From positions 1 through 26,257 of IMG/VR virus record IMGVR_UViG_3300009620_000043: DNA of 26,257 nt; one strand, written 5' to 3'. Shown piece by piece: positions 8,392 to 19,886 of this stretch. Every line of letters starts with the position of its first letter. The stretch's first letter is position 1. This DNA comes from a virus. The notes beneath the pieces are model-generated. The model had not been told where the DNA came from. It saw only the letters and a program-made list of their open reading frames with translations, and made no database searches. A program made the position numbers and the translations under genes.

Positions 8392-9681
8392 ATGTCCAGA
8401 CGCTTAATGGCACGTAGAGTCGGAGAAGTATTAGTCAGCAGCAAGATGCTTCCATCGAGCTTGACTGATGGTGGGGTATTATTGGGATCTGGAACCGATG
8501 CAATCACGGCGATGTCAGTGCTTGCAGATGGGGCCATCATAGTTGGCGATGGTTCTGGCGATCCTGTTGCTTTAAGTGCGTTCTCATCATCTACCGGCAC
8601 GCTCAACGTCGCCAAGGGGGGCACAGGAGCGAGCACGCTGACGGATGGGGGCATCCTCTTAGGGTCTGGCACTAACGCTGTCACAGCGATGTCAGTGCTT
8701 GCAGATGGGGCTATTGTGGTGGGAGACGGTAGCACTGACCCAGTAGCCTTGAGTGCGTTCTCGTCATCTACCGGGACATTGAACGTCAGTAGTGGTGGGA
8801 CCGGCGCTGCATCACTGACCGATGGAGGTGTGTTGCTGGGTTCTGGCACTGGCGGTGTCACAGCGATGTCTGTATTGGCCGATAGCGAGATAATCGTTGG
8901 CGATGGTTCTGGCGATCCTGTTGCTGAGAGCGGTGCGACACTGCGGACCTCAATAGGAGTAGGCACTGGCGATACCGTACAGTTTGCTCTTCTCAAGGTT
9001 GGCAGCGGATCTGCCTCGGCCCCGACAATTACGGACTCAGGCGATCCTGACACAGGTCTATTCTTCGACACAAACAAGGTGGTGGTTGCTACAGGTGGAG
9101 AGGAAGCGAGTCGGTTTGCAACGGGAAGTGGGGCGTTTGGTTATAAATTAACGAACGCTGGTGGAACCGATCCCAACGGAATCCACATAGATTTCTCGGC
9201 AGCAGATCGTGATAATAATACTGAGGTGTTCCTTAGATGTGAGGACTCAAGTGCAATTAGGGCAATTATATATGCTGACGGAGATTTGCAAAATCACGAT
9301 AATAGTTACGGTGCTATCTCAGATCGGAAGCTGAAACAGGACATCACGCCCGCCAACTCACAGTGGGAGGACATCAAAGCCCTTTCTGAAATCGCCGTTA
9401 ACTTCCGGTTTAAGTCGGATGTGATTGCTAACCCCGATGCGGGGGCGTTGCTTGGCTTGGTAGCGCAGGACGTAGAACCAATATCGCCCGGCCTGGTTAT
9501 TGATCATCCTGACATGGAGGAGGTGATTGATGAGTCTGGTCAGCCAGTCCAACGACCAACAGGAACTATTACAAAGAGCATCCAGTATTCTGTTCTCTAT
9601 ATGAAGGCAGTGAAGGCCCTGGGTGAGGCCCTAGAAAGGGTCGAAGCGCTAGAGCTTCGTGTAACTGCATTGGAAGGCTAA
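8392..9681 (+). CDS. Tail fibre with 59-residue repeats and C-terminal S74 chaperone domain
   Basis: 429 residues. Residues about 24-190 hold two full and one partial copy of a 59-residue repeat (LTDGGVLLGSGT, MSVLADGAIIVGDGS, FSSSTGTLNV, GGTGA). A variable region follows, then at about residues 309-429 a peptidase S74 intramolecular chaperone domain beginning SDRKLKQDI. The serine at about residue 310 is the expected autocleavage site, and the C-terminus is a coiled coil (LGEALERVEALELRVTALEG). The domain trimerises the fibre and is then cut off. The fibre probably binds the host receptor. The repeated DNA could allow length variation by recombination. It starts one base after the preceding stop. 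Confidence 0.88.
   Translation: MSRRLMARRVGEVLVSSKMLPSSLTDGGVLLGSGTDAITAMSVLADGAIIVGDGSGDPVALSAFSSSTGTLNVAKGGTGASTLTDGGILLGSGTNAVTAMSVLADGAIVVGDGSTDPVALSAFSSSTGTLNVSSGGTGAASLTDGGVLLGSGTGGVTAMSVLADSEIIVGDGSGDPVAESGATLRTSIGVGTGDTVQFALLKVGSGSASAPTITDSGDPDTGLFFDTNKVVVATGGEEASRFATGSGAFGYKLTNAGGTDPNGIHIDFSAADRDNNTEVFLRCEDSSAIRAIIYADGDLQNHDNSYGAISDRKLKQDITPANSQWEDIKALSEIAVNFRFKSDVIANPDAGALLGLVAQDVEPISPGLVIDHPDMEEVIDESGQPVQRPTGTITKSIQYSVLYMKAVKALGEALERVEALELRVTALEG
8461..8991 (+). repeat. 177-base tandem repeat in the fibre gene
   Basis: Units start at 8461, 8638 and 8815, exactly 177 bases apart (59 codons). The third unit diverges in its second half. A 30-base block is identical at 8542-8571 and 8896-8925, so part of the first and third copies is more alike than expected, suggesting recombination or recent gene conversion. 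Confidence 0.85.
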
Positions 9682-10291: not shown

Positions 10292-10310
10292 GCGGGAAGG
10301 ACACTGGTTA

Positions 10311-11720
10311 ATGCAGTTGGCGTTTGTCGGTAGTTCCAATGAATCCAGGTCAGTTAATATATCAGGCCAACGCTCGGTCAATCTTGTTCCGGAGATTGAT
10401 CAGCATGGCAAATACCCGATTTCTCTCTATGGGCGTCCCGGTCTGAAGACATGGGCTGCTGGTGGTGCTGCTGAGATCCGCGGTCTGATAGAGCTTGAGG
10501 GCGATTTGTACGCGGTGGTGGGTAGTGATCTGAAGAAGGTCACAACAGGGGGAGCCGTCAGCACGATTGGGACACTCAACACCGCGACGGGACGTGTTGG
10601 GCTTGCTGTCAATGCCAATGCCACTCCACAACTTATCATAGTGGATGGGGTGAATGGTTATACCACAACCGGAAGTTCAGTAACGGTGATCTCGGATAGT
10701 GATTTCCCGGACACTGCTACGCACGTGGTCTACATCGACGGATATTTCGTGGTTAATGATCCAACCAACAAAGGGCGGTTCTATATCTCCAACAGCGAAG
10801 ATGGGACTGCCTGGACCGCGACCGATTACGCCACGGCAATTCGTGATCCAGATAAGCTTTCTGCAATCATGGTCAATCACCGTGAGCTTTGGCTACTAGG
10901 AGAGCGGTCGAGTGAAGTTTGGTATAATTCTGGTAATCCAGACTTCCCATTTGAGCCGATTGAATCAGGATTTGTCGAATGGGGTATTGCTGCGCCGCAT
11001 TCCGCGTGCCGAATCTCTGGGCGTATTTATTGGCTGGCACAAGGGCCAGATGGTGATGGCATCATTATGCAGTCCGATGGATTGCAGGGCGTTCGCATCT
11101 CAACACATGCAGTGGAGAATGCGATTGCTGGGTATTCCAAGATTTCAGATGCTTTTGCCTACTGTCTGGAGATGGAGGGGCATATATTCTATATCCTGAC
11201 GTTCCCGACCGGGGATGCTACGTGGGTATTTGATGCTGCATCTGGGTTATGGGCCGAGTGGAAGTCCTATACGATTGGGAGATTCCGCGGTAATGCCCAT
11301 GCCTTCTTCAATGGCACGCATGTCATTGGAGATTACCAGGATGGGAACCTTTTCCAGCTATCGTGGACTCAATTCTCGGACGCTGGAGTACCGATTGAGC
11401 GTATCAGGCAAGATCGTCATGTCTTGTCACAGAATTTGCGAGAGAGGCTCTTTCATAGACGCCTTGAGATCGAATTCGAGTCTGGTACAGGCACAGCCAG
11501 TCTTGATCCCCAGGTTATGTTGCAGTGGTCGGATGATGGCGGTCACACATGGAGTAACGAACATTGGAGGGGAATTGGCAAGGTTGGCAAGTACGCCAAT
11601 CGTGCTAGATGGGGTCAACTTGGGCAATCCAGAGATCGGGTTTACCGTATAACGATGACGGATGACGCCAAGATGGTGATCGGCAGTGGCTTTTTACAGG
11701 CAGATTTTGGAGCACAATGA
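10311..11720 (+). CDS. P22 gp10-like packaged-DNA stabilisation / tail hub protein
   Basis: 469 residues from the ATG at 10311. An upstream in-frame start at 10263 would lie inside the holin gene and gives no recognisable family N-terminus. Conserved P22 gp10 features appear in order: an N-terminal QRSVNLVPEIDQ segment, GRPGLKTWA, LYAVVGSDLKKV, VVYIDGYFVVNDP, an ELWLLGERSSEVWYNSG block at about residues 200-216, DFPFEP, and ISTHAVENAI. This protein follows gp4 in the neck and helps seal packaged DNA and carry the tail tip. GGGAAGG lies 8 bases before the ATG. The two proteins together support a P22-type podoviral neck. Confidence 0.88.
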   Translation: MQLAFVGSSNESRSVNISGQRSVNLVPEIDQHGKYPISLYGRPGLKTWAAGGAAEIRGLIELEGDLYAVVGSDLKKVTTGGAVSTIGTLNTATGRVGLAVNANATPQLIIVDGVNGYTTTGSSVTVISDSDFPDTATHVVYIDGYFVVNDPTNKGRFYISNSEDGTAWTATDYATAIRDPDKLSAIMVNHRELWLLGERSSEVWYNSGNPDFPFEPIESGFVEWGIAAPHSACRISGRIYWLAQGPDGDGIIMQSDGLQGVRISTHAVENAIAGYSKISDAFAYCLEMEGHIFYILTFPTGDATWVFDAASGLWAEWKSYTIGRFRGNAHAFFNGTHVIGDYQDGNLFQLSWTQFSDAGVPIERIRQDRHVLSQNLRERLFHRRLEIEFESGTGTASLDPQVMLQWSDDGGHTWSNEHWRGIGKVGKYANRARWGQLGQSRDRVYRITMTDDAKMVIGSGFLQADFGAQ

Positions 11721-12355
11721 TGGTTATGGCTTATAACGTCTTGAACAACAGATTAGGTGGAAATCGACAACGACTCCTGACGGGTGGCATGACGGCTCCA
11801 CCGAATGGCAGAGTACTCACTCCGGAGGAGTACGAAAATCGCGGAGTGGAATCTCCGGCTGGCTTCTTGCCACCTCGAACTGATTTTGATGCGGAAAACA
11901 GGCGACGCATAGAGGGTATGCCACCAGTTCCTCCTGGAAATGGACTAGAATCAGACTTCGATCCGGGTGTGCTTAGGGAAAACTACCCCGAATTCCTCGC
12001 CCCACTGCCACAGAGTCCAATGGGTGGTCCAATGGGTGGTGGAATGGGTGTTCCAAATCACTTGCAACGACTCATCACCTATTTGGGTAGTCTAGCTAAC
12101 AAAATCACCACTGCGATTGATGCCGTTGAAGTTGCTGGGGGCAGGTTCGACCCCAGATCAGTAGGTAGGACGGGTGGAGTTGCTGGGGTCCAACAGGGGC
12201 CGATGTCAGGTCCGCCTGTGGAGAATCCCGACCCTAGATTAGTAGCGGGCAGGTTCGACCCCAGATCAGTAGTTAGGCGGGGTGAAAGGCAGCCGGTACA
12301 ACAGATGCGACGACCGATGGGACCGATGCAAGGCCCCAGAGGTCTTTATGGATGA
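11717..12355 (+). CDS. Low-complexity protein carrying DPRSVxR repeat peptides
   Basis: 212 residues, overlapping the gp10-like gene by ATGA; ATG codons at 11720 and 11726 are alternative starts. The protein is rich in P, G, R and M and probably largely disordered apart from one helix (NHLQRLITYLGSLANKITTAID). It contains a 4-residue PMGG repeat (12-base units at 12017-12052). Two clear copies of the GGRFDPRSV peptide, at 12137-12175 and 12248-12286, and one decayed copy (DPRLV at 12230-12244) follow. The peptide resembles DPxSVVRExEF in the internal virion protein at 16451. I infer a virion-assembly or ejection accessory role from this likeness and from position; no known domain is seen. Confidence 0.65.
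   Translation: MMVMAYNVLNNRLGGNRQRLLTGGMTAPPNGRVLTPEEYENRGVESPAGFLPPRTDFDAENRRRIEGMPPVPPGNGLESDFDPGVLRENYPEFLAPLPQSPMGGPMGGGMGVPNHLQRLITYLGSLANKITTAIDAVEVAGGRFDPRSVGRTGGVAGVQQGPMSGPPVENPDPRLVAGRFDPRSVVRRGERQPVQQMRRPMGPMQGPRGLYG
12017..12052 (+). repeat. 12-base tandem repeat encoding PMGG
   Basis: CCAATGGGTGGT occurs twice in tandem at 12017-12040 and is followed by a third unit with changes (12041-12052). It encodes PMGGPMGGGMGV. Confidence 0.8.
12137..12286 (+). repeat. DPRSV peptide repeat, copies 1 and 2
   Basis: Copy 1 (12137-12175) encodes GGRFDPRSVGRTG and copy 2 (12248-12286) encodes GRFDPRSVVRRGE. The two share GGCAGGTTCGACCCCAGATC and continue alike to GTA. A decayed copy (DPRLV) lies between them at 12230-12244. 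Confidence 0.85.
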
Positions 12356-12385
12356 GCAGGGATCAACATAATCTGAGGGACGACA

Positions 12386-12892
12386 ATGGCTAATAATGCA
12401 CTCTATAATCTGATAAGGATGGACCCCAGATCAGTAGGTAGGACGGGCGGGTTCGACCCCAGATCAGTAGTTAGGCGGGGTGAGTTCACTGATTATGAAG
12501 GTGGTCTGGATTTGCCGCCTGGAGATCCGGAGGAAACTGAGAGGGGGGCTATTGAGAGACGACTTGATCAGTATCTGCGTCGGAGAGAAGACCCCGGATC
12601 AGTAGTTAGGCCGGGTGAATTCCCTGGGGGCAGGTTCGACCCCGGATCAGTAGTTAGGCCGGGTGAGTTCACTGGGGGCAGGTTCGACCCCAGATCAGTA
12701 GGTAGGACGGGTGAATTCCCTGATTATGAAGGTGGTCTGGATTTATCTCTCCGCGAACAGAGGATGATGAACGCGCTTGCCCGTCTTCGGGCAGACAAAA
12801 TGAGGTGGGAGAGGGATGTAATGAATCCGGCTGCTGATTATGAAGGTCCGCTGCCTCCTCTTCCCAATCGCAGACGAAGCCAAAGATTCTAG
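12386..12892 (+). CDS. Protein built around five DPxSVxRxGEF repeats
   Basis: 168 residues. GAGGGACGAC just before the ATG gives a good ribosome-binding site. The N-terminus MANNALYNLIRMDPRSV resembles the segment before the single motif in the internal virion protein (ALIIQFNKTMDPESV). Five copies of the peptide lie at residues 12-21, 22-34, 68-79, 81-95 and 97-111. Two longer blocks, EFTDYEGGLDL and EFPDYEGGLDL, repeat at residues 33-43 and 110-120, with a weaker DYEG at 151. Between the repeat blocks is a charged helix (ERGAIERRLDQYLRRR), and another (REQRMMNALARLRADKMRWERD) follows. No known domain is seen. It could be a multivalent ligand for the partner that normally binds the virion-protein motif. 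The reading frame is supported by the repeats keeping one phase. Confidence 0.68.
   Translation: MANNALYNLIRMDPRSVGRTGGFDPRSVVRRGEFTDYEGGLDLPPGDPEETERGAIERRLDQYLRRREDPGSVVRPGEFPGGRFDPGSVVRPGEFTGGRFDPRSVGRTGEFPDYEGGLDLSLREQRMMNALARLRADKMRWERDVMNPAADYEGPLPPLPNRRRSQRF
12419..12718 (+). repeat. DPxSVxRxGEF peptide repeat, copies 3 to 7
   Basis: Copies at 12419-12448, 12449-12487, 12587-12622, 12626-12670 and 12674-12718. The last three have an exact 48-base period measured at the DP codons (12590, 12638, 12686). Two subtypes occur, SVGRTG (copies 3 and 7, and copy 1 upstream) and SVVRRG or SVVRPG (copies 4, 5, 6, and copy 2 upstream). The codons TCA GTA GTT AGG are kept in all SVVR copies. Confidence 0.88.
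12491..12744 (+). repeat. 23-base direct repeat encoding DYEGGLDL
   Basis: Identical 23-base blocks at 12491-12513 and 12722-12744, each directly after a DPxSV copy. A 12-base partial copy (GATTATGAAGGT) is at 12836-12847. This shows that motif plus flank was duplicated as a larger unit. Confidence 0.85.
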
Positions 12893-12929: not shown

Positions 12930-13301
12930 ATGCCCACGTTAAAACCATTACCGCAGCCTCCGGCATGGAATCCCATGGAGGAGAACGGACAGATCACTCG
13001 TCCATGGCATCGGTGGTTCCAGATCATCCAAGCACTTACGTTCAAGCATTTTGTAGTAGCGCCAACACTCGATCCCGCCTCTGTATCTGCCAACACCACA
13101 TCGGAACAGACATTCACGGTCAACGGGCTAACAACTGACATGGTGATATCAATTACCAAATCGAGTCACACCGCTGGTCTTGTTATAGGAAGCGCTCGGG
13201 TATCAGCAGCCGATACTGTGGCTATCACTTTCGGAAATCTTACTGGCAGTTCGATCAATCCTCCATCAGAGGAGTACAAGATTATGGGGACGAGAGAGTG
13301 A
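12930..13301 (+). CDS. Small conserved virion protein, function unknown
   Basis: 123 residues from the ATG at 12930; a TTG at 12927 is the only close alternative in frame. The N-terminus is proline-rich with PPAWNPMEENG and RPWHRWFQIIQAL, a pattern seen in short phage proteins encoded near tail or ejection genes. The C-terminal part is a small beta-sandwich-like domain (DPASVSANTTSEQTFTVNGL then DMVISITKSS and GLVIGSARVSAADTVAITF). It also happens to contain DPASV, but the flanking residues and the codons differ from the repeat family. There is no clear ribosome-binding site, so it may depend on read-through from upstream. Confidence 0.65.
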   Translation: MPTLKPLPQPPAWNPMEENGQITRPWHRWFQIIQALTFKHFVVAPTLDPASVSANTTSEQTFTVNGLTTDMVISITKSSHTAGLVIGSARVSAADTVAITFGNLTGSSINPPSEEYKIMGTRE

Positions 13302-13351: not shown

Positions 13352-15382
13352 ATGGCATTTGATCCTCTGAGCCTCGCCTTATCGGTTGGCGGCAGCGTAC
13401 TAAGTACGGTGATCGGGTCTTCTGCTGCACGGAGCGCAACGAATGCACAGATTGCGGCAGCCGAAAGAGGTGCTAAAGCACAGGCAGAGGCTATGGACGC
13501 GGCAATGGCTGCCCAGATGGACCAATTTAATAGGTCTTTTAATTTCCAGGTAGCCAGCTATTTAGATCAAGTTGCTGCATATGCCCCAACAGTGGCTGTC
13601 AGAGAAGGGGCTCTCTTAGCATTGACGGGATATGAAGACGCAGGAGGAATATTCCCAGAAAGAGCCGGTCCTGGCTATCTCGAAACTCTAGCCAGACAGC
13701 AGCCTGGCCCCGGCGTTGCCATCCGTGGTGTCACTCCACCAGTTGGCCCCACAGTCACTCCACCAGTTGGCCCCACAGTCACTCCACCTGTTGCTGGTGT
13801 TCAAGCGCCCCCGGTAGCTATATCAAGGCAAGAGCTTGCCAGAAGATGGGAGACTGGTGATGTCCCGAGTTCAGGCAATAACTTCTGGGGTGCTGGAAGC
13901 TTCCAGGCGGCTTATCAGGGTGGCTTCTACCCGCCTACTCACGATGAGGCGAATACCAGAGCAAGAGAGCTAGGGCTGGCAGCCCCGGAGGGTCATCTTG
14001 AACAAGGAGTGCTTACGCGTCGGCTTAGTGCACTCCAATCGGACCTAAGAGATGCAGAATCGCAATACGAGGGCGGGGATCCGGGTCTTGAGGCTGAGAT
14101 CCTAGCATTACAACAAGAGATTCAGAGAACTACTGATGCTGCTCCAGCGGTAGTTACCGCACAAGCACCTGTGCCTGTCGCTCCTGGAGTAAGTCCTTTC
14201 GCAGACGTTGATCGCCCCACGTTCATCCCACCAGTACGTCCGAGGGGGCCGTTCTTTGATGAGAGAGAATTCACCCTACCAGAAGAATTAACGGGACCCC
14301 GGCAACTATATCCTACGGAGGATGAGTTTGTTGCGCCCCAACCGTTTGATGTAGGGGAATTCAGGGACAAAGAAGTGTTTGCGCCTGATGAATTTACTCA
14401 ACCTCAACGGTTGGCGGCTGGTGAATTCCTGGATCCCATAGTCTACGATCCAGGCAGATTCAGGGAACCATTCACTTTTGATACTGCTGATCTGGAAGCC
14501 GATCCAGGGTATCAGTTCCGCAGAACCGAAGCGGAGAACGCGCTTGCTAGGCTGGCAGCAGCCCGGGGAACAGCCTTCTCTGGCGGCGAAAAGCGGGAGC
14601 TTGCTCGTATCATTTCTGGACATGCAGCCCAGGAATATGGGGCAGCGTATGCGCGGCAGTATGCTGACTATCTGCGTCAGCAGAATATCAGCCAGACAGA
14701 ATTCGCAGCACTTCTCAATGATGCGGCGAGACGATGGGGAGTGACGCTTGATGTCTTTGGCGCTAATGCCGCAGACGTGGCGAGGCGTTACCAAGTGGCA
14801 AGAGATGTCGAGGCGTCTCGGCAGAGAGATATTGAGAGACGATATGGTATAGAGGCAGATATCTACGGTACACAAATCGCTGATATCCAGAGACGATATG
14901 ACATTCTCACGGATCAATTTGGCCTTGATGCTGCGGATGCTCAGAGGCGAATTGAACAAGAAATATATCTTGAGAATTTGAAAAGGGCCGGGGAGCAAAG
15001 CATATGGAATCGGTATGCGACTTTGGCTGGAATGCCAGCGATGGGAGAGACTGCACAGGCTGCGGCGGCAGCCGGGCTGGGATTGTCCGGGCTTGCCCAG
15101 CAGGCTGGTGCAACTACTGCTGGTATGCAGACCGCCAGGGGGAATGTCTTGGCTAATCTTTATGGGCAAGTCGGCGGGCTACAAGCGCAAGGCGCTCTCG
15201 CCCCGGCGACGATTATGGCGCAGGGGATACGTGGGCCTATCGACTACATGCAAGGGGCTATAAGGCGAGAAGAACAGATGGCGCACGAGCAAGAACTGGC
15301 CAAACTGATGGGAGTGGGAGGAATGCCGTCAGTTACCGGGACGGGCAATAGAGCATTTTCACTCCTGTCAGAGTATGATTAA
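13352..15382 (+). CDS. Large ejection-type internal virion protein
   Basis: 676 residues. The N-terminus (FDPLSLALSVGGSVLSTVIG) is a glycine/alanine-rich hydrophobic segment followed by a long helix (ATNAQIAAAERGAKAQAEAM), typical of proteins injected with the genome. Residues about 127-148 are a TPPVGPTV tandem repeat. Residues about 305-380 hold repeated short blocks around a [D/G]EF..P pattern. Residues about 380-425 (DPGYQFRRTEAENALARLA then RGTAFSGGEKRELA) match a segment common to phage DNA-transfer proteins. Residues about 465-535 hold three copies of an A-D-x-x-R-R-Y pattern and are strongly helical. The C-terminus is rich in A, G and Q. Probably part of the DNA ejection apparatus. 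GGGGTGAATA precedes the ATG. Confidence 0.75.
   Translation: MAFDPLSLALSVGGSVLSTVIGSSAARSATNAQIAAAERGAKAQAEAMDAAMAAQMDQFNRSFNFQVASYLDQVAAYAPTVAVREGALLALTGYEDAGGIFPERAGPGYLETLARQQPGPGVAIRGVTPPVGPTVTPPVGPTVTPPVAGVQAPPVAISRQELARRWETGDVPSSGNNFWGAGSFQAAYQGGFYPPTHDEANTRARELGLAAPEGHLEQGVLTRRLSALQSDLRDAESQYEGGDPGLEAEILALQQEIQRTTDAAPAVVTAQAPVPVAPGVSPFADVDRPTFIPPVRPRGPFFDEREFTLPEELTGPRQLYPTEDEFVAPQPFDVGEFRDKEVFAPDEFTQPQRLAAGEFLDPIVYDPGRFREPFTFDTADLEADPGYQFRRTEAENALARLAAARGTAFSGGEKRELARIISGHAAQEYGAAYARQYADYLRQQNISQTEFAALLNDAARRWGVTLDVFGANAADVARRYQVARDVEASRQRDIERRYGIEADIYGTQIADIQRRYDILTDQFGLDAADAQRRIEQEIYLENLKRAGEQSIWNRYATLAGMPAMGETAQAAAAAGLGLSGLAQQAGATTAGMQTARGNVLANLYGQVGGLQAQGALAPATIMAQGIRGPIDYMQGAIRREEQMAHEQELAKLMGVGGMPSVTGTGNRAFSLLSEYD
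13730..13788 (+). repeat. 24-base tandem repeat encoding a TPPVGPTV linker
   Basis: The unit GTCACTCCACC plus AGTTGGCCCCACA occurs twice in full (13730-13753 and 13754-13777), with a third partial copy at 13778-13788. It encodes a Pro/Thr/Val-rich linker, and its length is a multiple of three. Confidence 0.88.
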
Positions 15383-15484: not shown

Positions 15485-17173
15485 ATGGCTTTACAGCCTG
15501 TGGATCTTGTGGCATTTGCGAAGACCTTTAAGCCATTTGGTTATAGTGATCTCGCGAAAGCACCAAAGAACGATCAGTTGGCGCGTTTGAATACGGTGCT
15601 TGGCATTAACGTAGAGAGGCATGAATTCGAGAGAGACCTAGCACGAACCAGCGCGCTTACTCCTCTAAGGGGTGCACTGCCATCGCCGCCACAGGGACTC
15701 CCGTGGATCGCAAGTGGAAGACTTACTCGTGATGACAATCAGCGATTGAATGGATGGGCTCATGGCGAATTGTATGAGGCGGCCGCACGGAGGCTCCTGG
15801 CGCTTGGCTATCCCGTGGACGCCAAGAATCTACTGACAGTGAATACAGAGTTGGCAGAACAATCGAGAGTGGCAACTAAGAATTTTGCTAAGAATTTCGC
15901 TCATACTGTTCTCACTACCCTGGAACTACAGACCGAGGGCAAGACAGTAGAAGCGGAGGAGTTATGGAATAGGGCGTTGTCCCAAATGCCAGGCACAGAA
16001 GCATTCTTAGGTGACGGGAATAATATGGCTGCACTTGAAGGTCATCTGGGTGACGCAATTAAGTGGTTCAACACGTTAGATTCCCCAGACCTTCAACAAT
16101 ACTTCGACGTGGATCTTGGACAGTTTGTTTATCTGCCTAAAGATGTGATCGGTGAGGAGGGACGCAAGGGATTTCGGACCTCTGCACAACAGAAGGACTT
16201 TGCACGTGAAACCAGAGAGCTAAGGAAAGAGTGGTACAACCAATCCAAACCGTTTGCCTCCAGAGTCACAGCATATAATACAGCGGCGGACGCAACTGGT
16301 TGGAAGGAAATTCTGTTAGGGATCAAAGATAACTCCGCGGAGTGGGATGATCTTGATCCAGCTACCATTAGAGAGAGACTCGAGAACACACTCGCAGCAC
16401 GGGCCACTGGAGCTAGTGACATTGCTCTCATCATTCAATTCAATAAGACGATGGACCCTGAATCAGTAGTTAGGGAAAGCGAGTTTGAAGTTGTTCAAAG
16501 GTCTGCGGGGATCATAGCGCAGGCGAGGCATTTGCTTGATGATTTGAGCAAGGGTCTGAAGTTGCCAAAAGCCGCGAGATTTGATCTGCTTAATACAATG
16601 ACAGCCATGATGGACGCTGGCATAGAAGACCAGCGGAGACAAACAGAGTTCTACACTAAGGTGGTTGAACGAGAAGGTCAAAACCCATCAGTCATCATTT
16701 TCGATTTCACGGAAGCTTTGTCGTATGCAGAAACCGTTCAGGATATTCTAGATCGAGTGGATATAACACCAGGGGGGGCTGCAACACCAGGGGGGGCTGC
16801 TCGCGAAGTGAGCGCTCTCGATCAGAAAGAAGCTCTTAAAGCTATGGTGATCGCTTTAGAGTCAGACCGGTGGCTAAATGTGGGTAATGGATTCGAGATA
16901 GTAGAAGAAGGAGGAGAGTTGTTTCGGAACCTTGAAGAGAGCGAACAGGATGCTTTGATAAGACAGCGTCTTATGGAGTTTCCTGAGTCGATGTTTCCCA
17001 ATGATATGGGCTTCAACGAGAGACTAGCACTATTTGGGGAAGTCGCTGGAGAAATGTCTCAAAATCAGCAAGGTGATCAGGGAGGGGATCGGTTGGGAGA
17101 GTTTCTGCAATCCCTTAAGGGATTGCCTCAAGCCGCAAGGCAGCTTTTGCCGAAAGCACTGGGGAATAACTAA
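15485..17173 (+). CDS. Internal virion protein with DPxSVVRExEF motif
   Basis: 562 residues, largely helical and charged, with no membrane segment. Residues about 305-334 (SDIALIIQFNKTMDPESVV then RESEF) carry a motif widespread in phage internal virion and ejection proteins, where it follows a hydrophobic helix. The motif itself is at 323-334 (bases 16451-16486). Residues 428-439 are an 18-base tandem repeat product (TPGGAA twice). The C-terminus is Q/G-rich and ends in a helix (LGEFLQSLKGLPQAARQLL). It probably forms the ejection complex with its two large neighbours. GAGAGGA lies about 8 bases before the ATG. The same motif is amplified in the two small genes at 11717 and 12386. Confidence 0.75.
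   Translation: MALQPVDLVAFAKTFKPFGYSDLAKAPKNDQLARLNTVLGINVERHEFERDLARTSALTPLRGALPSPPQGLPWIASGRLTRDDNQRLNGWAHGELYEAAARRLLALGYPVDAKNLLTVNTELAEQSRVATKNFAKNFAHTVLTTLELQTEGKTVEAEELWNRALSQMPGTEAFLGDGNNMAALEGHLGDAIKWFNTLDSPDLQQYFDVDLGQFVYLPKDVIGEEGRKGFRTSAQQKDFARETRELRKEWYNQSKPFASRVTAYNTAADATGWKEILLGIKDNSAEWDDLDPATIRERLENTLAARATGASDIALIIQFNKTMDPESVVRESEFEVVQRSAGIIAQARHLLDDLSKGLKLPKAARFDLLNTMTAMMDAGIEDQRRQTEFYTKVVEREGQNPSVIIFDFTEALSYAETVQDILDRVDITPGGAATPGGAAREVSALDQKEALKAMVIALESDRWLNVGNGFEIVEEGGELFRNLEESEQDALIRQRLMEFPESMFPNDMGFNERLALFGEVAGEMSQNQQGDQGGDRLGEFLQSLKGLPQAARQLLPKALGNN
16451..16486 (+). repeat. Single DPxSVVRExEF copy, probable parent of the repeat array
   Basis: Encodes MDPESVVRESEF. The core ATCAGTAGTTAGG is identical at base level to the SVVR-type copies in 12248-12670, although synonymous codons could differ freely. 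Confidence 0.7.
16766..16801 (+). repeat. 18-base tandem repeat encoding TPGGAA
   Basis: ACACCAGGGGGGGCTGC plus one base, present twice in tandem (16766-16783 and 16784-16801). Each unit contains a run of seven G, so frame errors or sequencing errors here are possible, but the frame is maintained on both sides. Confidence 0.85.
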
Positions 17174-17174
17174 C

Positions 17175-19886
17175 ATGGCCGACGCATTTCTTCCTGAAAA
17201 GACATCGCCGCCTACGCAATCTCCTAGATCCACTGAACCAGCACCAGATGGATTACCCTTCCCTGGGTGGGGTGGGCAACAACATGCACAGTCGTTAGTG
17301 GGCGGGTCACCGTTAGTGGGCGGGTCACCATATCAACCTATAGTTCCAGAAGGTGTCGGAGATAGTCTTCCCCTCGGGAGCTGGCCGAGGCCATTTCCCC
17401 AAGCAATGTCGAAAATCGTTCTTGATGCTGTTCGTCGTGCGCAAGCCGCCGAGCATGGAAGAGGAGTGCGGCAAGGATTTAAGGCAGCGCTCTGGAGGGG
17501 GTTTTTCTTTGGTTTTGGCGATGAACTCACGGGCCATGTGAGAGCCATACTTAACCCAGAAGATCCCAACGCAGCAACAGCCGCCAAAGAACTTGAGAGG
17601 GCAAGGTACGATTATCTGTATGACACTGAACCGGCGCTTGCTCACATTGGCGAATTCCTGGGGGCAATACCAAGTTCACTGGGAGGGGTTGCTGCTCTTG
17701 GAAGAGTGGGAATCCACATAGCCAGAAACATTGGGAAGTTGGGGGTGCTTCCGGGGGTGGCCCATGTGGGATCACGCATTAGACAAGAATCCAGAATTGG
17801 CCGCGTCGCGGCTGCCACACTCTTTGGCTACGCCGGTGGGGGTATTTACGGAGCGGGTGTTGGTGGTGAGCCGGAAGGCATGAGCCGATTGGAGAGTGCT
17901 GGATGGGGGGCTGGCGTTGGGGCTGGATTCGGTTTTGGGTTGAGATCGGCCACGGAAATAGTACGGATTCTCCCAAACGTAGCAAGATTTGCAACCCGGC
18001 TCGTCTTCCCTATCCCAGACCGAGTCCACGCGCAGATGGCATTTAGGGAGGCTCTTAGGAAGGACGGTGTGTCGGAGACAGAAGTGTACCGTATATTGGC
18101 AGATACACATAGACTTGAGGAATTGCAAGGCCCTGCACTGAGAGAAGTCCGAGAGACTCGACTGGCGAATAGTCAATCGGCTCGTGATGCTGTGGGAGGG
18201 GGAGAATTCATACCGGGTCTTCCAGCGCCTGAAAGGGCCGCGCAACTTGAAAGGCTCAGGCTGGAGAATGATGGTAGAGCTGGTATTGGTGGAAGGCCAG
18301 AAGTATACCTTCCTGGACCAGCAGAGCGTAGTGGGGCACTGAGAGAAGCCCTAGAGGATGTCCCAGCTATGGGGACCCCCAGAGAGGGCCCGGTCCCGGT
18401 GTCGAGGTTGTTTGATCTCCGCGAGAGATTACCCAACACCTCAAACTTAGTCTATCACGCTGCCCATAATCCGAGTCAAATGCCTTTTGCTAAACAATTA
18501 CTGTGGAATAGGAATCGTGGAACACGCGCAAGGATATCCCAAGCACTAGGTGAATATCTGGGTGCAGATCCGGATTACTTCTACAGTCTGGACGCGATTT
18601 CATCCTCGCAATATACCGCATCTCGACCGCTGTACCTCAAAGCTTTCGGAAGTGTCGAAAATCCGACAACCATGCCACTGGCTGACATTGCTGAACTCAT
18701 TGTGGGTGATGATACGTGGATCAAACAATATAGACACGTGCTGGATAATGACAAACGGGCGATGAGAAGTTTGCGTGCCGAGAGGGTTGCTGACTATGCT
18801 CTGAAGCACAATGTTTCCCGGGATGAGGCGGAGAGAGCTGTGGTTGTTACAGCATATCCGAGGATATCGGAGGACGACCTCACACTCCTGAAAGAATTGG
18901 GTCCTCCGGATAGCACTGATCCGGTTCTGAGAGCACAATGGCAAAAACGATTACGCATAGCGTTTGGTGATAAGCAAATCTCCTTCGCTCAGCTAGATCA
19001 TGTCAAGAGGGCTATCGACAGAGAGATCAACAAGGCGCAGTCTCTAATAAATGCGGGTAAGGGTGATCCAGACTATCTCAAGTCCTTGCAAGACCAGAGG
19101 CGTGCATTGCTCACTACGGTTGATACGTTTGGCGGTAACCCAGCCTATGCGAACGCACGAGCGGTATACGCTGGTTACGAACGGTTACTCGACGCCATGG
19201 AGGCTGGTAAGCGGATCTTTAAAACTGGTACTGACGCGGACGCAATTAGATACATTAATACACTATTTACACAAGTATACGGACAAAGCGAGAAAGACGC
19301 GATGTTGACTGGAGTATTGCACGCGGTATCCGAGCGATTTGACAGGGGTGTGGATGGCGCTAATGCAGTCAAGAATGTGTTCGGGACCGAGAACAGAAGA
19401 AAGCTTCTCCGCGCGTTCTTCCCGAACGAGAAATTGTTTGAGGAATTCGAAACGTTGATGGAAATATATGCCAACCATGTAATCACACATGGTTCCATGG
19501 GGGGAACCAAGACCGCACCTGTGTTGTTGGGGCAACAACTCTTCGATCCCAAACGCGTCACCAAAGGCCAGGCGGGTGACTATATTTTCCGATTCTTCAT
19601 AGACCCCACGAATCAAGATGCTTTGAGAGATGCCATCGCGGGCGCTGTTGTTGACCAGGGATTGGTACGAGAAGTGCCCAGAAGATTGATCGGACGTAGT
19701 AGGAATGTTCTTGAACAGGTAATGCAAACGCCAGTAGCCAGATTTGGACAGCTCGTTGGTGAGATTCCAATTTTAGAGCCCGGAGCGAGAGTGGCAGGTG
19801 GTGTGCCTTCCGATATTGAAAGGCGGGAAGAGCGACGGTTGTACGAATATGGACAGCCTCCACCAGCACAGCAAGCGGCTCCGTAA
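17175..19886 (+). CDS. Very large internal virion / ejection-type protein
   Basis: 903 residues from the ATG at 17175, directly after the preceding stop; the frame is open upstream to 17034, but that would lie inside the previous gene. The N-terminus is Pro-rich with LVGGSP twice (residues 41-52). Residues about 100-260 hold FKAALWRGFFFGFGDELTG and then several glycine/alanine-rich stretches (LFGYAGGGIYGAGVGG, WGAGVGAGFGFG), which look membrane-active as in proteins that form an ejection channel. The C-terminal two thirds are helical and charged (about 330-880), with no recognised enzyme domain. It ends with a proline-rich tail. By size and order it is the third ejection protein of this phage. 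Confidence 0.72.
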   Translation: MADAFLPEKTSPPTQSPRSTEPAPDGLPFPGWGGQQHAQSLVGGSPLVGGSPYQPIVPEGVGDSLPLGSWPRPFPQAMSKIVLDAVRRAQAAEHGRGVRQGFKAALWRGFFFGFGDELTGHVRAILNPEDPNAATAAKELERARYDYLYDTEPALAHIGEFLGAIPSSLGGVAALGRVGIHIARNIGKLGVLPGVAHVGSRIRQESRIGRVAAATLFGYAGGGIYGAGVGGEPEGMSRLESAGWGAGVGAGFGFGLRSATEIVRILPNVARFATRLVFPIPDRVHAQMAFREALRKDGVSETEVYRILADTHRLEELQGPALREVRETRLANSQSARDAVGGGEFIPGLPAPERAAQLERLRLENDGRAGIGGRPEVYLPGPAERSGALREALEDVPAMGTPREGPVPVSRLFDLRERLPNTSNLVYHAAHNPSQMPFAKQLLWNRNRGTRARISQALGEYLGADPDYFYSLDAISSSQYTASRPLYLKAFGSVENPTTMPLADIAELIVGDDTWIKQYRHVLDNDKRAMRSLRAERVADYALKHNVSRDEAERAVVVTAYPRISEDDLTLLKELGPPDSTDPVLRAQWQKRLRIAFGDKQISFAQLDHVKRAIDREINKAQSLINAGKGDPDYLKSLQDQRRALLTTVDTFGGNPAYANARAVYAGYERLLDAMEAGKRIFKTGTDADAIRYINTLFTQVYGQSEKDAMLTGVLHAVSERFDRGVDGANAVKNVFGTENRRKLLRAFFPNEKLFEEFETLMEIYANHVITHGSMGGTKTAPVLLGQQLFDPKRVTKGQAGDYIFRFFIDPTNQDALRDAIAGAVVDQGLVREVPRRLIGRSRNVLEQVMQTPVARFGQLVGEIPILEPGARVAGGVPSDIERREERRLYEYGQPPPAQQAAP
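17294..17329 (+). repeat. 18-base tandem repeat encoding LVGGSP
   Basis: GTTAGTGGGCGGGTCACC is present twice in direct succession (17294-17311 and 17312-17329) near the start of the 903-residue protein gene. Confidence 0.88.

Follow-up and report, generated by a model that had tools for sequence, protein, structure and literature searches.

The peptide DPxSVVR(E)xE, which occurs once in the gp20-type ejection protein of an environmental virus and in several copies in two small genes upstream of it, may serve as a docking peptide that engages the binding partner of the gp20 loop in assembly or ejection, offered in multivalent form by the arrays. We put the probability of this reading at roughly 45%. 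Such arrays recur in a further dozen or so unrelated phages from the environment, which suggests that a docking peptide is shared and not that one gene was copied once. We have high confidence in the sequence facts themselves: what the motif is and where it sits in gp20, that in-frame arrays recur, that their residues are preserved and that they go with gp20 genes. The window, i.e. the whole stretch of DNA that was analysed, is a virus record of 26,257 bases from IMG/VR.

The gp20-type gene and its motif

The 562-aa gene (15485..17173, + strand) probably encodes a P22 gp20-type ejection (DNA transfer) protein, for which presence in the virion and ejection into the host are predicted. Its product matches phrog_13634 (E 6.4e-7) with a domain at about residues 304-382, scores 83.6 bits against a gp20-domain HMM among whose members the sequence itself is counted, and is matched by Kapi1 gp20 at 41% over 63 aa around the motif (BLAST E 6e-11). 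The domain profile thus covers the motif, and the gene order Hc3 - gp7 - gp20 - gp16, with phrog_578 and phrog_598 upstream, is the same as in Kapi1 and P22. The neighbours on the + strand are a head closure protein Hc3 of P22 gp10 type (10305..11720, phrog_578, E 6e-118), a gp7-type ejection protein (13352..15382, phrog_598 'DNA ejection', E 3e-11) and a large protein placed by gene order at the gp16 position (17175..19886, phrog_5880 of unknown function, E 9e-24), which is not similar in sequence to any of the known gp16 proteins with which it was compared. Searches for close relatives found none for the 562-aa protein among annotated phages and none for it, the 168-aa or the 903-aa protein among viral contigs, and a sequence search of solved structures gave no relative.

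The signature motif MDPESVVRESEF (16451..16486, + strand) lies in frame within the 562-aa ORF and reads DPESVVRESEF. AlphaFold places it in a predicted seven-residue loop, residues 324-330, between two helices. A scan with the pattern DPxSVVRxGEF matched at least 120 other viral contigs, and nearly all matches listed belong to a gp20 domain with the consensus GDLALIFxYMKMLDPGSVVREGEFATAQN. The motif likewise occurs in proteins of CRP-901, ct3Oc712 and the cultured phages Kapi1 and Mx8 (in the latter as SAVRE), which carry the annotation DNA transfer protein or virion structural protein, and it is an old feature and the signature of one gp20 module. It is absent from the gp20 of P22, Sf6 and HK620, where other modules occupy its place, so that the motif represents one module among alternatives. 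Neither motif nor domain has a Pfam family above the cut-off, SVVREGE did not occur in the literature searched, and no paper on the motif was found there.

Published SieA-escape changes in P22 gp20 (L221) fall at residues 338-350 (PMC10883804), a segment that by eye replaces the motif loop of Kapi1-type gp20. The hand alignment that equates these positions with the loop is suggestive, but as no significant P22 gp20 profile match was found there it was not used.

The array genes as an insert

Two ORFs on the + strand carry the arrays, with seven motif copies and one decayed copy between them. The first (212 aa, 28% G+P; 11717..12355), whose start codon ATG and the stop codon of the head-closure gene overlap, contains two copies of SVVR/SVGR type, DPRSVGRTGGV (12149..12181) and DPRSVVRRGER (12257..12289), and between them the decayed DPRLVAG (12230..12250). 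The second (168 aa; 12386..12892), preceded by the ribosome-site-like GAGGGA, holds five copies: (M)DPRSVGRTGGF (12422..12454), DPRSVVRRGEF (12455..12487), two of DPGSVVRPGEF (12590..12622, the first unit of a 48-bp tandem array at 12590-12722, and 12638..12670) and DPRSVGRTGEF (12686..12718). SVGR replaces SVVR (V to G) in three of the seven, and the final E is lost in two. The copy types SVVR(R/P)GE and SVGRTG are intermixed along 12149-12718, and no SVGR-type copy was found in the other phages examined. With pS 0.19 and pN 0.07 (pN/pS about 0.36) the constraint is weaker than in arrays elsewhere, and this array appears to be young, partly decayed and an exception among the arrays.

Unlike the 562-aa gene, which shares both the domain and the signature motif of P22-like gp20 (the phrog_13634 module; Kapi1, SEN22, Mx8) in the shared order Hc3 ... 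gp7-like, gp20-like, large gene, the array ORFs carry the motif without the domain. A search for a helical gp20 domain around the motif in both ORFs returned motif-length matches only, the best single-stretch gp20-profile score being 13.1 bits. No family match was obtained for the first ORF and no convincing one for the second, and the array proteins found chance matches only among annotated phages.

In 54 of 58 Hc3 relatives the next gene begins at most 53 bases from the end of the Hc3 match and has a P-rich start followed by a WYRFF-like motif. Its likely counterpart in the window is the small gene at 12930..13301 (+ strand), recognised by a PxxNGQIxRPWxRWF-like start as a sequence pattern and with no PHROG match, which lies about 1.2 kb further downstream, past both array ORFs. 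The array ORFs are an extra insert between the head-closure gene, its upstream flank, and this usual neighbour, its downstream flank, that is absent from the relatives. The contig L145 combines an Hc3 gene 38% identical to that of the window with the gp20 motif DPQSVVRESEY, and shows no array. Together with the position of the insert, this contig supports the order in which the gp20 motif came first and the array later. The suggestion of the sequence-only reading that the virion gene had the motif first is thus borne out, both by the motif being the signature of a widespread gp20 domain and by the absence of the array ORFs from relatives. No array was seen among the first 120 gp20-motif contigs listed, and most gp20 phages seem to manage without one.

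The array ORFs occupy the same Hc3-gp7 interval as P22 gene 26 (needle) and gene 14 (head morphogenesis) but have no sequence similarity to either, and the usual occupant of this slot in the phage group of the window appears to be still present downstream of the arrays. A further contig, L122 (IMG/VR 3300009605_000583), has a 100% match to the Hc3 protein and ends about 266 bases past Hc3, just before the array, possibly because of an assembly break at the repeats.

The DNA link between array and gp20 gene

An unlikely alternative is that the array is a DNA-level copy of this phage's own gp20 gene, subsequently expanded, as had been proposed from the letters of the DNA. The 13 bases reported as common to the gp20 motif and the upstream copies are indeed shared: ATCAGTAGTTAGG occurs at 16462, 12265, 12463, 12598 and 12646, i.e. 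in the gp20 motif and in four array copies (DPRSVVRRGER, DPRSVVRRGEF and both copies of DPGSVVRPGEF), and nowhere else in a search of both strands. At 60% identity or more, the repeat family comprises eight motif copies, seven from the array and one from the 562-aa gene. Under the codon usage of the virus, and given the amino acids, the spelling TCA GTA GTT AGG for SVVR has P 0.0017 (0.006 to 0.10 for whole motif copies). In an empirical control of 120 gp20 motifs from other phages, among the matches listed, the same four codons were found once and a 13-base run shared with the array not at all. Copying at the DNA level is further favoured by ATGGACCC, which is also kept in the first copy of the second ORF, and by codon sharing above expectation in L211 and L209.

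However, the gp20 motif of the window agrees with the array DNA at 24-25 of 36 positions, where the median of the 120 unrelated gp20 motifs listed is 24 of 36, and most of the DNA likeness is therefore dictated by the amino acids. The residues of the array are nearer to the family consensus DPGSVVRPGEF than to DPESVVRESEF of its own gp20. Elsewhere, array and gp20 differ in codons in L212 and L202 and in residues in L213 and L214. The proposed resemblance between the N-terminus of the 168-residue protein and the lead-in to the motif in the virion protein (NNALYNLIRM against DIALIIQFNKTM) was not significant at the protein level, with an ungapped profile score below 99% of background windows and P 0.70 to 0.76 in a gapped shuffle, nor in a local DNA test (P 0.70); a right-anchored DNA test gave P 0.017. 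Arrays with diverged codons, which the earlier reading had itself named as speaking for convergence, occur in many of the 15 further array contigs described below.

The DNA link is accordingly real but slight and is no proof of copying. From the proposed history, expansion by DNA duplication is retained in view of the 48-bp unit; derivation from this particular gp20 gene is not, given the mild DNA match and the non-significant lead-in. An ultimate origin of the array from some gp20 gene is plausible, since a gp20-like helix still precedes the motif in array copies of L212 and L232.

Arrays in other phages and apparent selection on the peptide

Three double-motif scans of viral contigs yielded 15 contigs beyond that of the window (L202-L214, L231, L232), about 13 of them distinct, since one array sequence is common to L207 and L208 along the length that both cover, and one ORF to L210 and L214 (L230 is identical with L214). 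Both motif copies are in frame in one ORF in all 15, where by a rough estimate about 0.01 such contigs would be expected by chance. Outside the motif the array ORFs of different phages are mostly dissimilar, with some plainly related, e.g., those that form gp20 N-terminal tails in L209 and L213. The array forms the N-terminal tail of a gp20-like protein with its own domain copy in L209, L211 and L213; array ORF and gp20-domain ORF overlap in different frames in L202, and in L210/L214 the array ORF lies immediately upstream of gp20 and overlaps it. The gp20 family phrog_13634 was detected in eight of 13 array contigs tested; the remaining five measure 4.6 to 11.9 kb. The Hc3 family was found in none of these array contigs, only in the window.

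L231 (2511-2792) and L232 (2441-2848; both in reverse-strand coordinates) encode tiny, strongly basic proteins with little beyond two motif copies, and the ORF of L232 has an internal start MPSHY as does the array protein of L212. Two candidates were rejected: the sole double-motif match in genome contigs, L215 from an Acidobacteria bin, lies in a repetitive stretch and is not a gp20-type array, and OR846606 has a VVEPGS repeat instead of the motif.

The copies differ mainly at synonymous positions (pS 1.07 and pN 0 in L212 including its gp20 copy; pS 0.60 and pN 0 in L204; pS 0.93 and pN 0.08 in L230 including its gp20 copy), although some of the core conservation follows from having searched for copies with the core pattern itself. 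R7 and E10 are invariant in the tabulated array copies; E10 lies outside the scan patterns, and a few degenerate copies were recognised by their final E. The array copy and gp20 of L212 encode the same twelve residues with three of twelve codons shared, and in L213 and L230 the phage's own gp20 reads STVRE where the arrays read SVVR. Synonymous divergence with a kept core and arrays that read SVVR beside a STVRE gp20 make the arrays look selected as peptides.

This pattern bears on the question whether the window array arose recently by replication slippage as a repeat expansion without function, which we regard as distinctly improbable. The 48-bp tandem unit would be in line with such an origin, as would the low pS of 0.19 combined with amino-acid changes in the core and the further slippage-type repeats near 13730, 16765 and 17293. 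But two ORFs, both with plausible start signals, preserve the frame, and in other phages arrays of this kind persist despite synonymous divergence. The short tandem repeats in question are perfect or near-perfect and in frame, at 13730-13793 (24 bp) in the gp7-position gene, 16765-16800 (18 bp) in the gp20-position gene and 17293-17329 (18 bp) in the gp16-position gene, which suggests slippage-prone coding in this phage.

Proposed docking role and its alternatives

Under the docking reading, the gp20 motif loop between two helices likely contacts a conserved partner during head loading or conduit assembly, candidates being gp16, gp7, the portal or gp20 itself. Extra copies of the peptide would be carried on apparently disordered chains, either separate small proteins or gp20 N-terminal tails, and such arrays could act as multivalent adaptors, binding several partner copies and thereby helping to collect ejection proteins close to the portal or keep them there. 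Partner binding by the motif, its multivalence and the step served are all three what we infer. P22 gp16 and gp20 are reported to have to match in order to function (PMC10883804), and gp20 to be the conduit protein like T7 gp15 (PMC8954989). Against the docking reading stand the rarity of arrays among gp20 phages, the lack of the motif in the gp20 of P22, Sf6 and HK620, and the V to G changes, lost final E and weaker constraint in the window array. Still more tentatively, tailed phages may share an undescribed linear docking code, DPxSVVRxxE, present in the gp20-type ejection protein and, independently and in many lineages, in disordered accessory chains that would scaffold the loading of ejection proteins or the assembly of the conduit.

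In the AlphaFold prediction for L213, the motif (568-574) is likewise a loop between helices, and pLDDT exceeds 90 in the domain and is 32-45 in the array part, low pLDDT with a thin alignment being weak evidence of disorder. Compared with known scaffolds, which have several conserved short-motif copies per flexible chain, the repeats are present, and flexibility is suggested by the low pLDDT in L213 and in the window by composition only. Fold searches gave no PDB match at E 0.001, and fold matches in BFVD were mostly uncharacterised phage proteins. A match to the cyanophage A4 pre-ejectosome (Z 5.7) lies within the stated noise of the tool and was discarded; Z scores of other helical bundles were middling.

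We give little credence to the idea that the array proteins work as decoys by titrating away the gp20 partner, for instance to keep the DNA of a second phage out (superinfection exclusion) or to stop assembly from starting too early. The stretch repeated in the arrays is indeed the best conserved of a protein that is injected, and P22 SieA blocks infection via gp16 and gp20 (PMC10883804). The fusion or adjacency of array and gp20, however, argues for joint action and against a decoy: the array belongs to gp20 itself in L209, L211 and L213. Moreover, the array ORFs of the window are located among late head genes and have no match to defence families.

Least probable is that a protease or a modifying enzyme recognises or cuts the motif, as a short charged loop, the cleavage of P22 gp7 by the host OpdA (according to a database record note) and the suggested processing of gp20 (PMC8954989) might indicate, because conserved residues span ten positions, many sites on one disordered chain would destroy that chain and the gp20 motif caps a helix in a confidently folded predicted domain.

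Comparison with known repeat scaffolds

If the motif is a docking peptide, as we prefer, the arrays would resemble the multivalent scaffolds of carboxysomes in mode of action. CcmM repeats are similar to part of its cargo enzyme. The similarity of the arrays to CsoS2 and CcmM is that of works-alikes only, i.e. repeats along a flexible chain (PMC11365436, PMC8580825); there is no sequence relationship, and the phage system differs in its 10-residue loop repeat and its virion setting. The recruitment of ejection proteins to the portal and their assembly into a DNA conduit are poorly understood, and the motif provides a defined handle on this process: it spans ten residues, is the best-conserved stretch of a widespread gp20 module and is repeated by a number of phages in separate chains.

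Repeats of another kind occur in the tail-fibre-like protein at 8392-9681 of the window, which has degenerate internal repeats (LTDGGxLLGSGT...AMSVLADGAIIVGDGS) and a chaperone-like C-terminus (SDRKLKQDI).
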